A DNA stretch of 64,000 bases from Spirochaetota bacterium (GTDB lineage Bacteria > Spirochaetota > GWB1-36-13 > JAKPDD01): assembly GCA_029552945.1 (NCBI GenBank), contig JAKPDD010000023.1, forward strand, positions 124,001 to 188,000. Direction: 5' to 3'. Below are positions 31,913 to 59,348 of the stretch, piece by piece (position 1 is the first letter of the stretch; the number at the start of each line of letters is the position of its first letter). Both the position numbers and the translations under genes were made by a program. The notes under the pieces were generated by a model, which was not told where the DNA came from, ran no database searches, and worked only from the letters and a program-made list of their open reading frames with translations.

Positions 31913-33175
31913 TTAAAAATTTACTACCACTCCTAAACCAGCATAGATTGAGTTCTGAATATCTTTTGTACCAAATCCTTTTGTACCAAAAGCACCACCA
32001 GTATTAAGATATGCACCCTCAAAAAGTATCTTGGTGTTTTCTTCTATATTAATTGAGAAAATAAGGTCTATTTCAAATCCTAAGTCTTTTTTGTTATTAG
32101 TATTTGATACCTCCTTCATTAACTGAGCATAACCAAAGTTTAAACCAACTTCAGCAAAATCAATATTATATCCTAGACTGCCCCCGCCAATAATATAACC
32201 ATAATTAAGATATCTTATATTAGCAAAGTCATCATTAGCTATTGTAGAAAATGTTTGTTGGTTTTCAAGTAATAGGAGCCTCCCCTTCACTCCAGATATT
32301 TTGAAAGCATTAAAACCTTCATACTTATCTGGTGTAGCAGAATTATCACCAGAGGTTACTGCAAAAAAAGCTTTTATATTAAAATTATCAGAAAAATTAT
32401 AATTTGCTTCAATATCAACAGCATAACCACTGTATTTTATATTATTACCTTTGTCTTTACTATTACCATATGCAAAAGCAATATTTATGTTTGCTTTTTC
32501 AAGTTCAACTGAAAATAACAAAGAAAAAAGAGATGCCAGATTATTAGCCCATGGAGTATTTGTTATTTCAGATCCACCTTTTATAAAAAAAATAGATGGT
32601 GAAAAAAGTATGTTATTTATTTTAAACCTAAGATCAGTTCCAAACATATTAGCATCATCTCTGTTTGTTCCCGGGGTTTCCTCTTCCATTTTAATATATA
32701 CAAGAGATACATTATTATCACCAAATGTATAGGTAGCCATAAAAAGAGGTGTATTATCAGAAAGCACAAGAGCACCTGGGATCTCATACTCTGCTACACC
32801 ACGTTTGAACGATAAACCATTAATAAATGGGACCTTTATCTCTATATAAGCCTGTTCAATCTTAACAGCATTCTTCACATCAGATCCTATAGGAGCATAA
32901 TCTTCTGATGGTGTAACCCCACTTCCCATAAATTGGTCAATACCTAACTGAAGCTTTCCATTTACATTTTGTGTTGAAAAAGATATATAAGGCCAGAAAC
33001 TGTATGCTGAGAATGTAAGATATCCATCTTTTTCTGTAGTTTTGTATGAAGCCCCGTATACATAAATATCAGCTCCAAAGTCAAACTTTTTGGTAATTGT
33101 TTTTTCACCTTCATTTTCTCCATAAGAAAATATCCCTATTACTAATACAAAAAATAGTGCCAGAAATTTTTTCAT
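31913..33175 (-). CDS. Outer-membrane beta-barrel (porin-like) protein 1
   Basis: 420 residues from 33175, where AAGGAG lies upstream; the in-frame ATG at 33202 has none. A signal peptide ('KKFLALFFVLVIGIFSYG') precedes a long run of amphipathic strands, and the C-terminus ends in Phe ('GLGVVVNF'), as for BAM substrates. It is a clear paralogue of the protein at 58089: shared blocks include 'LTFSAYSFWPY', 'ENQQTFSTIANDDFANIR' and 'AYLNTGGAFGTKGFGTKDIQ'. The family is not one I can name; channel function is inferred. The opposite-strand sensor at 33337 starts 161 bases away. Confidence 0.75.
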   Translation of the reverse strand: MKKFLALFFVLVIGIFSYGENEGEKTITKKFDFGADIYVYGASYKTTEKDGYLTFSAYSFWPYISFSTQNVNGKLQLGIDQFMGSGVTPSEDYAPIGSDVKNAVKIEQAYIEIKVPFINGLSFKRGVAEYEIPGALVLSDNTPLFMATYTFGDNNVSLVYIKMEEETPGTNRDDANMFGTDLRFKINNILFSPSIFFIKGGSEITNTPWANNLASLFSLLFSVELEKANINIAFAYGNSKDKGNNIKYSGYAVDIEANYNFSDNFNIKAFFAVTSGDNSATPDKYEGFNAFKISGVKGRLLLLENQQTFSTIANDDFANIRYLNYGYIIGGGSLGYNIDFAEVGLNFGYAQLMKEVSNTNNKKDLGFEIDLIFSINIEENTKILFEGAYLNTGGAFGTKGFGTKDIQNSIYAGLGVVVNF

Positions 33176-52530: not shown

Positions 52531-53712
52531 ATGAAAAAAATTATTATAATTACGTTATTTTTTTTTACTCTTAAAGTCTTCCCTTCAAGTATAACTAAAA
52601 TTAACGTACAGGAGTCTAACAATAATCTTGGATTTAAAATCCTTAATGCTTTAGATAAAGAAAATAAAAAAAGTAGCAAACAAAGTAATATATTTTTTTC
52701 ACCACTGAGTATATATTTTGCAATGTCCATGGTGTATATAGGTGCTAAAAATGATACAAAAAAAGAGTTCCAGAATGTTATGGAAATAAGTGATAGTAAT
52801 GTAGAAGAAATTGAAAAAATTTCAAAAAAAATAACTGATAATGAAGATATAAAACTAGAAATAGCAAATAAAATATGGCCTTCAAAAGATATAAAATTAA
52901 AAAATGAGTATGAAACAGATCTTAAAAAAATATTTGCAGTAGATATTCAGCAGTTAGATTATTCAAAACCAACTGAATCAGCAAATATAATAAACTCTTG
53001 GGTTGCCAGACAAACAAATCAAAAAATAAAAAACCTTATCTCACCTGACATACTCAATCCATTGGTAAAATTGATACTAACAAATGCTATATACTTTAAT
53101 AGTGAGTGGGATAAAAAGTTTGACAAAAATAAAACATACACTGACACATTTTTTGGATACAAAAACAAAAAACAAGATGTAGAATTTATGCTTAAAGAAG
53201 AGAATATCCTATTTTACAACGATAAAGATTTAAGTACTGCCTCAATACCTTATAAAAATAAAAAAATGTCATTCTTTATTATATTGCCAGAAGACATAGA
53301 TAAAATAAACCTTGATTATAGTAAGATAAACAGCTATATTGCTAAAATGCAAGTCCAAAATGTTGAAATACACTTACCAAAGTTTAAAATAGAATATGAA
53401 AATGAGTTTAAACCTATCTTTTTTTCTCTTGGAATTAAAAAAGCATTTACTCCAGGAGAAGCTGACTTTACAGAAATAGCTGAATATCCACCTCTTTATA
53501 TAGAATATATTCTACATAAAGCATTCATAGAAGTAGATGAAAAAGGCACAGAGGCTGCAGCAGCAACAGCAATAATAATGAACACAAAGTCAGTAAAGAT
53601 AGACTTTGATAAAATTATATTTAAAGTTGATAAACCCTTTATATTTTTCATAATAGATAATGACACCAAATCAATACTTTTTTTAGGAAAAGTTTTAAAT
53701 ATTAATAAATAG
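52531..53712 (+). CDS. Secreted serpin (serine protease inhibitor)
   Basis: 393 residues. A signal peptide (about 1-19) precedes a complete serpin fold: 'NIFFSPLSIYFAMSMVYIGA', 'LTNAIYFNSEWDKKFD' and 'PFIFFIIDNDTKSILFLGKV'. The inhibitory hinge GTEAAAATAIIM runs 339-350, with the small residues needed for loop insertion. Counting from the hinge, P1-P1' is Lys353-Ser354, predicting trypsin-like protease targets. This is prediction, not measured. It stands in its own transcription unit after the MscS operon and before DUF3592. Confidence 0.9.
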   Translation: MKKIIIITLFFFTLKVFPSSITKINVQESNNNLGFKILNALDKENKKSSKQSNIFFSPLSIYFAMSMVYIGAKNDTKKEFQNVMEISDSNVEEIEKISKKITDNEDIKLEIANKIWPSKDIKLKNEYETDLKKIFAVDIQQLDYSKPTESANIINSWVARQTNQKIKNLISPDILNPLVKLILTNAIYFNSEWDKKFDKNKTYTDTFFGYKNKKQDVEFMLKEENILFYNDKDLSTASIPYKNKKMSFFIILPEDIDKINLDYSKINSYIAKMQVQNVEIHLPKFKIEYENEFKPIFFSLGIKKAFTPGEADFTEIAEYPPLYIEYILHKAFIEVDEKGTEAAAATAIIMNTKSVKIDFDKIIFKVDKPFIFFIIDNDTKSILFLGKVLNINK

Positions 53713-54839: not shown

Positions 54840-55943
54840 ATGAAAAAATATTTTTTATCCTTTCTTGCAGTTCTCTTAATACTTATATTTTTATCAAGTT
54901 GTTCAAAAAACGAAATTACTATTGGTTTTATAGGAAATATTACAGGTAAATTATCTAATTTGGGAATAGATGCAAGGGATGCTATTATATTAGGCATTGA
55001 TGAGATAAACGAAGAAGGGGGTATCAAGGGTAAAAAAATAAATCTTATAATAGAGGATGATGGTTTTGATAAAAATAAGGCTATTGAAGGAATAAATAAA
55101 CTCATTAAAAAAGATCCAGTATTAATAATAGGGCATATAGTAAGTGCTATGTCTGTTGCAACAATCCCAATAATAAATGAAAAAAAAATACTTATGATAA
55201 GTCCAACAACAGTAACTAATGAAATAAATAAAAAAGATGATTATTTTATAAGAGTATCGCCACCAACTAGTTATACAATAAAAATTTTTGCTGAGAAAAT
55301 AATAGAAAGCAATATAAAAGAGTTAAACATAGCATACGATCTTGTAAATAGAGCATATTCTGAGGACTGGTTTAATACATTTAAAAAAGAGTTTGAAGAT
55401 AAAGGGGGAAAAGTTTATCCCTTTTCTTTTGATTCAAGTAAGGAGAAAGTTTCAAAAGAATTTGCAAAAAATATAAGTAACAAAAACATAATAATTGTTG
55501 CAAGCCCTATTATTGCAGGGTTATTAACACAGTATATAAAACAGATTTCCCCAAAGATGAGAATATTCTGTGCTGGCTGGGCAATGGGACCTGAGTTTAT
55601 TGAGAATGCTGGAAATTATAGTGAAAATGTCGTTTTTTCTTACAACTTCGATGAAAATACAAAAAATGAAAATTATATTAAATTTAAAGAAAAGTTTTTT
55701 AAAAGATTTGGGAGGAACCCAAGTTTTACCTCAACCCATGCTTATGAAACTATTATGATAATAAAAGATGCATTGGCAAACATAGATGATTACAGTGCTG
55801 ATTCTATAAAAAAATATATACTTACAAAAAAAGTATTTGATAGCCTACAGGATGAAAAAATAGAGTTTGATGAGTTTGGTGACCCAAAACCAGTACCAGT
55901 ATTTATAAAAATTGAAAACGGTAAGTTTATAAGGGGTTTTTAA
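54840..55943 (+). CDS. LivJ-like periplasmic binding lipoprotein (type 1 fold)
   Basis: 367 residues. The lipobox FLSSC puts lipidated Cys at 21. The type 1 binding fold is clear: 'ITIGFIGNITGKLSNLGIDARDAIILGIDEINEEGGIKGKKINLI', 'VLIIGHIVSAMSVATIPIINE' and 'TSTHAYETIMIIKDAL'. It binds an amino acid or similar small ligand. No ABC permease or ATPase is adjacent; instead the next gene, 1 base later, encodes a histidine kinase. Its role is therefore probably ligand presentation to the kinase. Confidence 0.88.
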   Translation: MKKYFLSFLAVLLILIFLSSCSKNEITIGFIGNITGKLSNLGIDARDAIILGIDEINEEGGIKGKKINLIIEDDGFDKNKAIEGINKLIKKDPVLIIGHIVSAMSVATIPIINEKKILMISPTTVTNEINKKDDYFIRVSPPTSYTIKIFAEKIIESNIKELNIAYDLVNRAYSEDWFNTFKKEFEDKGGKVYPFSFDSSKEKVSKEFAKNISNKNIIIVASPIIAGLLTQYIKQISPKMRIFCAGWAMGPEFIENAGNYSENVVFSYNFDENTKNENYIKFKEKFFKRFGRNPSFTSTHAYETIMIIKDALANIDDYSADSIKKYILTKKVFDSLQDEKIEFDEFGDPKPVPVFIKIENGKFIRGF

Positions 55944-55944
55944 A

Positions 55945-57957
55945 ATGCCTATTAAAATATCTTTAAAAAGACTTCTTCTTGTAAATCTTATAGTCGTCTC
56001 AATATTGCCACTTTTAATATTGTATACTTTCTCAAATGGATGGGTAAAAAAAGACTTAACAGAAGAGGTAAAAATAAAAAATACTACAATAGCATCCATT
56101 CTTGCAAATGATGTAAAAACTTTTTTTAATTTTTTTGTAGATATATTAAACTCACTTACAGAAAGAACAAATGATAATGACATACAAAATTATATAATAA
56201 AAGTTCAAAAAGATATAAAAAATCTATCACAGATATTTATAACTAACAAAGAGGGGAATATAATAAATATTGCCCCTTATGAAACCGACTTTATTGGTCT
56301 TGATATTTCAAAAAAAGATTATTTTTTCAATGCAAATGAAAATAGAGAATACTTTTCAAATGTTGATCTTAATATATTTACAGATGAGCCATCTGTGTAT
56401 ATATCTAAAAAAACAAAAAATAAAAATAGAACTATTATTATAAAAATAAATGTAAACGAAATAAAAAAAATATTTTGTAATAAAGACATAAAATATTTCA
56501 TCACTGATAAAAATAACACAATACTTTTTAGCACTGAACCTGAAGAGGCAATGCAAAGAATAAACGTAAGTTGGTTAAGAAAAAAGATTACTGAAACTTA
56601 CACATCTGAAGTTGTTTTCAAAAATAAAGAATACATATTAACATATATTCCTTTTAATGATATAAACTGGGGTTTTTCAGTCTTATATGAAAAAGATAAA
56701 GCCCTCCTACCAGTTCAAAAAATATCAAACTCAATGTTTGTAATATTATTAATAGTCATAATTTTTTCAATTCTAACATCAAGTCTTATAGCAAGAAAAA
56801 TATTAAAACCCATTGAACATATAAGACAGAAAATAAAATATATATCAAATGGCAACTATACAACAGAAATTGAATCTAATGGAATAATCGAATTAAATGG
56901 TACAATATATGATGTGAAAAGTATGGCAGAAATTATAAAGAATAGAGAAGAGGAACTAAAATACCTTAAAGAAAAATATGAAAAAATAGTAAATACAGTG
57001 CCAGTTTCTGTTATGATGATAGATAAAGACGGGAAAATACTAGAATGGAATAATTATTCTGAAAAACTGTTCGGATGGAGAAAAGAGGAGGTAATAAGAA
57101 AAAAAAGCCCTATAATCCCTGAAGAATTAGAAGAAGAAACAGAAAATATGAGAAAATCTTTAATGAAAGGACAATCAATAATAAATTATGAGACAATAAG
57201 AAATACTAAATGGGGGGAGAAAAAATATCTTATAGGTTCAGCAAGTCCTATAACTATAGGTGATGAAAAAAATATTGTTGTAGCTTATGTAGATGTAACA
57301 GAAAAGAAAGAACTTGAAAAAAGACTTAAAGAGTCTTTAGATGAATCAAACTCTCTGTTAAGAGAAATACATCATAGGATAAAAAATAACCTACAGATAA
57401 TTTCAGGGTTATTATATCTTCAGTCAATATTTATTGAAGACAAAATAGCACTGGCAGCTCTAAGTGAAAGTCAGAAACGTATAAAAACAATGATTACAAT
57501 ACACGAAATGTTATATAAAACAAGAAGGTTATCCCACGTCGACCTTGACATATATATAGAACACCTTGTTAAAACAATATTCGAAGACTTTTTAACAGAA
57601 GAATATAATATAAAGTATTCACTTAATCTTGAAAAGATAAACATAAATGCGGATAAAGCTTCAAACTGTGGTTTAATAATAAATGAAGTAATAAATAACT
57701 CAATAAAACACGCTTTCCCAAAAAAGAAAGGTAAAATAGAGATAACATTAAAAAAAGTAAATAATAATGTAATATTAAAAATAACTGATAATGGTAAGGG
57801 GTTTGATAAAGAGAATATATCAAAAAAAGGAATAGGACTTGAACTTATAAACTCTCTTGTAAACGGTTTAAGAGGTAAACTTACCATAAACTCAGGAAAA
57901 GAAAAAGGAACAGAGTTTATAATTGGTTTTAGTTTATCAGATGAAAATTTCCAATAA
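55945..57957 (+). CDS. Cache-HAMP-PAS sensor histidine kinase, HisKA_2 type
   Basis: 670 residues. Helix 1 (about 10-28), a Cache-like extracytoplasmic domain (30-255), helix 2 (263-282), HAMP (283-335), PAS (343-455), HisKA_2 with the phospho-His in 'REIHHRIKNNLQIISGLLYLQS' (His476 or 477), and an HATPase domain with 'NEVINNSIKHAFP' and 'DNGKGFDKENI'. It begins 1 base after the LivJ-like lipoprotein. No response regulator lies next to it. Confidence 0.92.
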   Translation: MPIKISLKRLLLVNLIVVSILPLLILYTFSNGWVKKDLTEEVKIKNTTIASILANDVKTFFNFFVDILNSLTERTNDNDIQNYIIKVQKDIKNLSQIFITNKEGNIINIAPYETDFIGLDISKKDYFFNANENREYFSNVDLNIFTDEPSVYISKKTKNKNRTIIIKINVNEIKKIFCNKDIKYFITDKNNTILFSTEPEEAMQRINVSWLRKKITETYTSEVVFKNKEYILTYIPFNDINWGFSVLYEKDKALLPVQKISNSMFVILLIVIIFSILTSSLIARKILKPIEHIRQKIKYISNGNYTTEIESNGIIELNGTIYDVKSMAEIIKNREEELKYLKEKYEKIVNTVPVSVMMIDKDGKILEWNNYSEKLFGWRKEEVIRKKSPIIPEELEEETENMRKSLMKGQSIINYETIRNTKWGEKKYLIGSASPITIGDEKNIVVAYVDVTEKKELEKRLKESLDESNSLLREIHHRIKNNLQIISGLLYLQSIFIEDKIALAALSESQKRIKTMITIHEMLYKTRRLSHVDLDIYIEHLVKTIFEDFLTEEYNIKYSLNLEKININADKASNCGLIINEVINNSIKHAFPKKKGKIEITLKKVNNNVILKITDNGKGFDKENISKKGIGLELINSLVNGLRGKLTINSGKEKGTEFIIGFSLSDENFQ

Positions 57958-58088
57958 AAGCACAAATAAATAAATTCAATAAAAAATTTTTATTTAAAAT
58001 TCTTATTCAATTCTAAACATTATTGAAACACTATCTTAACATAAAAACCATAATTTTTTATTACATTATTAAAAAATTGGAGGAAAAG

Positions 58089-59348
58089 ATGAAAAAGATA
58101 ATTACAATTCTAATTACTATCCTATCTATCAACCTTTTTGCTCAGGAAGCAAAAGAGGTAAAAAAAGAGGATAATCCATTCAAGTTCACAGGTCAAGCAT
58201 ATGCATACACTGCAACATATAATACAACTAAAAAAGATGAGAAAATGACATTCTCAGCTTATAGGTTCAGACCATACTTCTCATATATTAAGGAAAACGT
58301 CGAGGCAACCCTTAAACTTGAGTTTGACCAATTTTTCGGCAATGGTGCAAATGAAAAATATGTTAAAGTTGGAGCTGATACAAAAAACGTTGTTGAAGTA
58401 AAAGCAGCATACCTTTTATTCAATAATGTACTTGCGGAAGGAGTTTTTATTAAAGGGGGAGTTGATGATTATAAAACACCGGGTGGGTTCATAGTTGGAA
58501 CAGATGTAGCACTAGGAATTTTAGGATATAAGTGGGAGAAAAATTATATTTCAGCTGTATATGTAAAAATAGAAGAAAGTAATGAAAAATATAATGGTGA
58601 TGATGCTCAGATGTATGGAATTGATATGAGTTTGACTTTGCCTATAATAACAATAAGACCTGCAATATATCTGATACAGGGTGGAAAGGATATAACAAAT
58701 AAACCATGGGCAGACAGTACAGCAATATTACCAGCTTTAACCCTAAGTTTAAAAATAGATAATATTGAAACTGTTATATCAGGCACATATGCTACTGGAA
58801 AAGATAAAGATGCTAATATAAAATACAGCGGTTATGCAACAGACATATTTGTAGGATATAGCATAGATAAAGAGATTAAAATAGGTGGTTTCTTTACAAT
58901 GCTCTCTGGCGATAATCCAGATACAACAGATAAAAAAGAAGGGTTCGCATCATTCCAGTTAAAACATGATGGATTTGGAAGAATGTTCTTATTAGAAAAT
59001 CAGCAAACATTTTCAAACATAGCAGCAGATACTTTTGCTGATATAAGAATGAAAACTCAGGGTTATATGTTATTTGGTATAACAGGTAGTGCAAAGTTCA
59101 ATATAATTGATGTTAAATTTAACATAGGATATGCAAACCTCATGAAAGAAACATCTGCTACAAAAACAAAAAAAGACCTTGGATTTGAAGCAGACCTCTC
59201 GATAGGGCTTGAAGTTCAAAAAAATGCTAAAATAGTTCTTGATCTTGCCTACCTTAACACTGGCAAAGCTTTTGGTACAGAAGGATTTGGTACAAATGAT
59301 ACCCAAAACTCAATGTATACAGGTCTTGGTATGACATTAAAATTCTAA
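58089..59348 (+). CDS. Outer-membrane beta-barrel (porin-like) protein 2
   Basis: 419 residues. The ATG at 58089 has GGAGG 6 bases upstream; an in-frame ATG at 58023 lacks a site and would spoil the signal peptide ('KKIITILITILSINLFAQ'). Repeated amphipathic strands end in Phe ('GLGMTLKF'). It is a paralogue of the protein at 31913: 'MTFSAYRFRPYFSY', 'ENQQTFSNIAADTFADIR' and 'AYLNTGKAFGTEGFGTNDTQ' are shared. It probably forms an outer-membrane channel; the substrate is unknown. It follows the kinase by 131 bases. Confidence 0.75.
   Translation: MKKIITILITILSINLFAQEAKEVKKEDNPFKFTGQAYAYTATYNTTKKDEKMTFSAYRFRPYFSYIKENVEATLKLEFDQFFGNGANEKYVKVGADTKNVVEVKAAYLLFNNVLAEGVFIKGGVDDYKTPGGFIVGTDVALGILGYKWEKNYISAVYVKIEESNEKYNGDDAQMYGIDMSLTLPIITIRPAIYLIQGGKDITNKPWADSTAILPALTLSLKIDNIETVISGTYATGKDKDANIKYSGYATDIFVGYSIDKEIKIGGFFTMLSGDNPDTTDKKEGFASFQLKHDGFGRMFLLENQQTFSNIAADTFADIRMKTQGYMLFGITGSAKFNIIDVKFNIGYANLMKETSATKTKKDLGFEADLSIGLEVQKNAKIVLDLAYLNTGKAFGTEGFGTNDTQNSMYTGLGMTLKF

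Follow-up and report, generated by a model that had tools for sequence, protein, structure and literature searches.

In the window analysed here, a stretch of 64,000 nucleotides from a Spirochaetota bacterium, two adjacent genes very probably encode a single transporter-free, two-protein receptor resembling LuxP-LuxQ, made of a LivJ-fold substrate-binding protein (SBP) and a sensor histidine kinase, with a stand-alone receiver of the same genome as its probable output. This model starts from the anatomy of the two proteins, the order of their genes, their membership of a conserved clade, and the co-variation between the lipoprotein and the Cache domain of the kinase. Signalling would involve 1) closure of the lipoprotein on a small molecule in the periplasm; 2) docking of the closed lipoprotein onto dCache of the dimeric kinase; 3) a resulting, ligand-dependent change in autophosphorylation at the HisKA_2 histidine; and 4) transfer of the phosphate, probably to the receiver. 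Conserved gene order, a clade free of transporter links, and the co-variation with Cache lend good support to the original prediction of a lipoprotein that feeds the kinase. We stop short of near-certainty because neighbouring SBPs and kinases may not interact (PMC11113362).

Results

Anatomy of the locus

The features of the locus are given in Table 1. The lipoprotein has 367 residues, with a signal peptide carrying a lipobox, and the kinase has 670, the two genes being separated by a single base. The open reading frames, the lipobox, and the Peripla_BP_6 score (123.8 bits) all agree with the earlier description of a LivJ-like lipoprotein 1 base from a kinase. Pfam matches of the lipoprotein are restricted to Peripla_BP_6, ANF_receptor, and Peripla_BP_5, with no LuxP-family SBP among them, and its AlphaFold2 model (pLDDT 94.6) has the LivK/LivJ structures 3td9 and 4gnr as best Foldseek matches. 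A strict lipobox pattern matches 36 of the 61 SBPs of the clade described below, and further putative lipoboxes are visible by eye. We propose that this protein is the ligand-binding subunit of the receptor.

Table 1. Coordinates of the features of the locus, in positions of the window.
Feature	Position	Strand	Basis
LivJ-fold (Peripla_BP_6) substrate-binding lipoprotein from the kinase-linked clade	54840..55943	+	Pfam, AlphaFold2, Foldseek, tree
Lipobox LSSC (Cys21), end of signal peptide	54891..54902	+	Sequence; motif picked out by eye
Sensor histidine kinase, put forward as the transmembrane signalling subunit	55945..57957	+	Pfam; ATG one base past lipoprotein stop
Periplasmic dCache domain, where the lipoprotein is proposed to dock	56056..56676	+	dCache_1 (43.9 bits), AlphaFold2, Foldseek, co-variation
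Cytoplasmic PAS domain	56971..57309	+	Pfam, 44 bits
HisKA_2 dimerisation and phosphoacceptor domain	57364..57585	+	Pfam, 83 bits; His477
HATPase_c catalytic domain	57673..57933	+	Pfam, 51 bits
Putative outer-membrane beta-barrel gene, neighbour outside the conserved unit	58089..59348	+	No Pfam/NCBIfam match; distribution

The combination of HisKA_2 (83 bits) and HATPase_c (51 bits) identifies a HisKA_2 kinase, whose His477 is nearly invariant across the family. The dCache_1 match of the periplasmic region lies slightly below the Pfam cut-off of 45 bits. The predicted structure supports a dCache fold: the AlphaFold2 model of residues 30-280 (mean pLDDT 91.7) has dCache domains, e.g., those of PscC, DctB, Mlp24, and PctA, as best solved matches in Foldseek. 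Several Cache residues conserved in the family are lost in the window protein. HAMP is matched by Pfam in 17/43 family proteins and not in the window kinase, where its presence is inferred from position. Of the domains originally assigned to the kinase, PAS and HisKA_2 stand by Pfam and Cache is supported by structure, HAMP being the part left without a Pfam match.

A conserved two-gene unit

We gathered SBPs by SBP sequence alone, from 40 related genomes and from a scan of ~85,000 species genomes, and annotated their neighbouring genes after the collection was made. A scan with a single sequence gave no match; the one that did used an alignment of six family members and one peptide pattern, which misses SBPs lacking the motif. 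The resulting tree has 95 rows and places the window SBP within a clade of 61, with support 100/100. Within this clade, a kinase gene follows directly on the same strand in 52 cases and does not in 9, and 51 of the 52 downstream kinase genes encode a Cache domain. Most of them (42/52) start between -30 and +5 bases from the SBP stop. The exceptions include an SBP that is the first of two in tandem ahead of a kinase (L133), one with a Cache kinase divergently upstream (L159), and one where the contig ends (L150). Outside the clade, a Cache-like gene lies directly downstream of only 3 of 34 SBPs (a chemoreceptor in L103, a cyclase in L119, and SpoIIE in L123). The SBPs linked to Liv genes have the opposite distribution, with none among the 61 and all 21 outside.

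The two-gene order recurs far more often than chance would give, and the first two genes are a conserved unit. The clade has hosts in Spirochaetota, Thermodesulfobacteriota, Pseudomonadota, Nitrospirota, Chloroflexota, and Bacillota, and a close SBP occurs in 16 of 393 scanned Spirochaetota genomes, so that the module is widespread but sparse. Ten of these 16 were new to the collection, and in nine of them a Cache gene lies directly downstream of the SBP, with L218 as the exception. A search of plasmids returned distant matches only.

Several related arrangements were also found. Tandem SBP genes precede one Cache gene at L133:2553-4848 and L217:1501-3703, which hints at a receptor that may be shared by two binding proteins. 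Outside the main clade, a LivJ-like SBP precedes a Cache-HAMP chemoreceptor by three bases (L103:6007-9330, genome G038), a like pairing with chemotaxis output. LivJ-like SBPs are also followed directly by a SpoIIE phosphatase protein (L110:6732-9550, G026) and by a HAMP-guanylate cyclase (L119:2597-5636, G013). One open reading frame (L117:3312-6722, G028) combines Peripla_BP_6 and cyclic-nucleotide-binding domains with a mechanosensitive channel of the MscS type, and is possibly a ligand-gated channel of that type. Another (L121:5216-7396, G026) fuses Peripla_BP_5, of the urea/amide type, to PAS and GGDEF, giving a diguanylate cyclase that senses by a binding protein.

The Cache domain as probable partner of the lipoprotein

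Among 43 downstream proteins of the family, dCache_1 and HATPase_c are each matched by Pfam in 39. The phosphoacceptor domain varies, with HisKA in 24 and HisKA_2 in eight, and receivers are present in 16 and EAL in one. Over 38 pairs, distances between SBPs correlate with distances between Cache domains (Spearman rho 0.78, with 0/2000 permutations as high), compared with rho 0.09 for the kinase cores. Since a mixture of kinase types might flatten the kinase-core value, we repeated the comparison on the 30 HisKA-type pairs only, which gave 0.78 for Cache vs 0.15 for the kinase core. The eight HisKA_2 pairs show no advantage for Cache (0.50 vs 0.65), as expected if these eight were inherited whole, so the window's own subgroup adds nothing to the co-variation argument. 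Taken over the family, the co-variation indicates Cache as the likely partner of the lipoprotein. Genes of one operon are inherited together, and congruence alone is no proof of contact. In a single chain of PDB 5ERE, residues 11-320 match the SBP profile (E 1.5e-14) and residues 328-495 match that of Cache (E 0.0019); its dCache has been placed at 322-562 and is listed with cytosine (PMC8694187). Since 5ERE joins both domains covalently, it supports the association of SBP and Cache.

Replaced residues in the predicted ligand pocket

Pocket positions were read against Escherichia coli LivJ as a ruler. We took as given its sequence and the roles of S79, T102, Y202, E226, and F276 in the branched-chain amino acid pocket. 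Residues S102, V125, S222, G246, W247, and T297 of the window SBP correspond to LivJ S79, T102, Y202, E226, G227, and F276, so that S79 is kept and T102, Y202, E226, and F276 are not. Across the clade, the S79 position is Ser/Thr in all 61 SBPs, that of Y202 is N, S, or G, and that of F276 is occupied by small residues. E226 is replaced in most (G in 28 and E in 14 of the 61), and the position of G227 holds Trp in 59/61. From these residues, an ordinary branched-chain amino acid pocket seems unlikely in the window SBP, and the ligand is probably not a branched-chain amino acid. The amino-acid-like ligand that had been predicted finds no support in the pocket, where several LivJ residues are replaced across the clade. 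Several structural neighbours of the lipoprotein model in Foldseek bind hydroxybenzoates, coumarate, or phenylpyruvate, and a carboxylate-bearing or aromatic ligand is possible, which we offer only as a lead.

With less assurance than for the receptor itself, we lean towards a broader reading in which the clade is a dedicated receptor family. Its LivJ-derived SBP, with a pocket rebuilt around a conserved Trp and mostly without the acidic contact to the amino group, would sense for a partner Cache. The family would span six phyla, with interchangeable outputs behind Cache and an undescribed class of ligand.

Signal output

No response regulator adjoins the pair, and the genome has 31 receiver matches. 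In the family, receivers linked to HisKA_2 kinases are the next gene in L128 and L137 and are fused in L139. All three pick the same protein of the window's own genome, a stand-alone receiver of 120 residues (C20:9034-9396), with 62-66 bits vs 44-46 for the runner-up. This suggests that the kinase probably signals via this receiver. The genome encodes two more HisKA_2 kinases (L023:6215-7759 and L024:5772-7289), both with built-in SBP_bac_3 sensor domains, so that all three HisKA_2 kinases are tied to binding-protein folds. As judged from these sequences, the C20 receiver could serve all three.

Alternative readings of the locus

The lipoprotein might instead be an orphan subunit of a LivHMGF transporter from another locus, its adjacency to the kinase being incidental or serving expression control only. 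The genome, a 1.87 Mb assembly that is 99% complete, offers some ground for this: it has six Peripla_BP_6 matches, several orphan SBPs, a complete LivJHMGF operon at C12, and a LivHMGF set without adjacent SBP at C44. One SBP can also serve a transporter and a receptor simultaneously. Against it, the clade keeps its kinase link across phyla without any Liv-linked member, the SBP co-varies with Cache, and two other SBPs fit the C44 set better. The one at C25 matches at 525 bits an SBP of G001, the sole relative of the same order that was compared, where the copy lies directly beside LivHMGF; the C25 protein can thus serve a Liv set lacking its own SBP. The one at C2 groups with transporter-type SBPs in the tree. 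By sequence, the C44 set seems more likely to use either of these than the window lipoprotein. No Liv genes are linked to the SBP at the window locus or in the clade, and the absence of an ABC permease or ATPase nearby, which had been claimed, is borne out among the open reading frames of 50-64 kb. LivHMGF genes elsewhere that use this binding protein had been named as evidence that would speak against the original prediction. Liv sets do exist (C12 and C44), but other SBPs are their better partners, and we regard the orphan subunit as very improbable. In the same part of the window, a full-length serpin is encoded at 52531-53712 (Pfam 340 bits), with an N-terminal signal-like segment, in this Spirochaetota genome.

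The original prediction had further joined the two genes to a third, encoding a porin under control of the kinase. The gene is present, and a start at 58089, giving 419 aa, suits it better than one at 58023. It follows the kinase gene on the same strand after 131 bases, with no terminator-like site found between them, which is in favour of one module; shuffled sequence gave at least as many promoter-like matches as the surroundings of the site, and these were left unused. Its product has no Pfam or NCBIfam match, so that the name porin is a guess from the look of the protein and from the weak, sub-threshold Alginate_exp match of a paralogue. This paralogue (44% identity) is encoded on the minus strand at 31916-33175 of the window. 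The distribution of the gene decides against the module: relatives occur in just 2/41 genomes, the ortholog of the nearest relative (G001) lies on another contig than its SBP-kinase pair, none of 49 scanned stretches of the own genome and of relatives has a match, and a paralogue exists within the window. We therefore rejected the porin as third member and consider a three-gene module very improbable. The expected order is conserved for SBP and kinase and leaves the putative porin outside, as a neighbour that could be transcribed with them or apart. Another reading, unlikely but deserving more weight, keeps the pair and lets both subunits sense, the Cache domain binding a small ligand of its own and the lipoprotein adding a second signal, with the two cues integrated. 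Small ligands are commonly bound by dCache domains, and that of the fused homologue 5ERE is listed as holding cytosine (PMC8694187). However, the LuxQ Cache is listed as without ligand (PMC8694187), and the Arg of the dCache amino-acid motif (R126 in PctA; PMC10104139) seems not to be conserved, being K124 in the window Cache and Q in 17/24 family members in an alignment made by eye.

Discussion

The transporter-free pairing recurs in many distantly related bacteria, so that a dedicated receptor of two proteins seems a better description of the pair than a stray gene for nutrient uptake. Its closest parallel in arrangement is LuxP-LuxQ, which senses autoinducer-2 in Vibrio, and where a binding protein likewise adjoins a kinase with a tandem-PAS/dCache periplasmic part. 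There, the ligand is held by the binding protein and not by the kinase, as we propose here. Three hallmarks of such systems are present, namely adjacency of SBP and kinase (a 1-base gap here, and 52/61 clade members), a periplasmic sensor domain for docking (dCache, in 39/43 family proteins by Pfam), and co-evolution of SBP and sensor domain (seen over the 38 pairs, though not within the eight HisKA_2 pairs). The window pair differs in its LivJ-fold lipoprotein, LuxP being of another SBP family, in its HisKA_2 kinase, and in having no adjacent response regulator. The window pair also shares its arrangement, an SBP paired with a kinase sensor domain, with TorT-TorS and XylFII-LytS, whose SBPs are of different families and whose kinases have different sensor domains. 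Solved complexes reported for both systems have the SBP bound to that domain (PMC6321045).

Work cited in PMC11113362 puts the binding-protein/kinase couples characterised up to 2021 at only about eleven. Of 11 such couples, 10 are gene neighbours (PMC11113362). Adjacency alone can mislead: SBP genes likewise lie near the sensor kinases AgtS and AruS of Pseudomonas aeruginosa, and the SBPs tested there did not bind those kinases (PMC11113362). Our search of the open-access literature found no description of the LivJ-type/dCache clade. Because this clade keeps the kinase link, never has the transporter link, and co-varies with Cache, it supplies tens of pairs for tests. Annotation pipelines would label such binding proteins ABC transporter subunits, and the Trp at LivJ position 227 is a sequence signature by which those dedicated to sensing might be called.

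Dret_0059 of Desulfohalobium retbaense (PDB 5ERE) also combines a LivJ-like SBP with dCache, and differs in that it is a covalent fusion, is more distant in sequence, and has a dCache listed with cytosine. The branched-chain amino acid SBPs LivJ and LivK share the fold of the window SBP, 3td9 and 4gnr being the closest solved structures. Unlike them, the window SBP has no transporter partner in its operon, has replaced the residues equivalent to Y202, E226, and F276, and carries a Trp at the position of G227.
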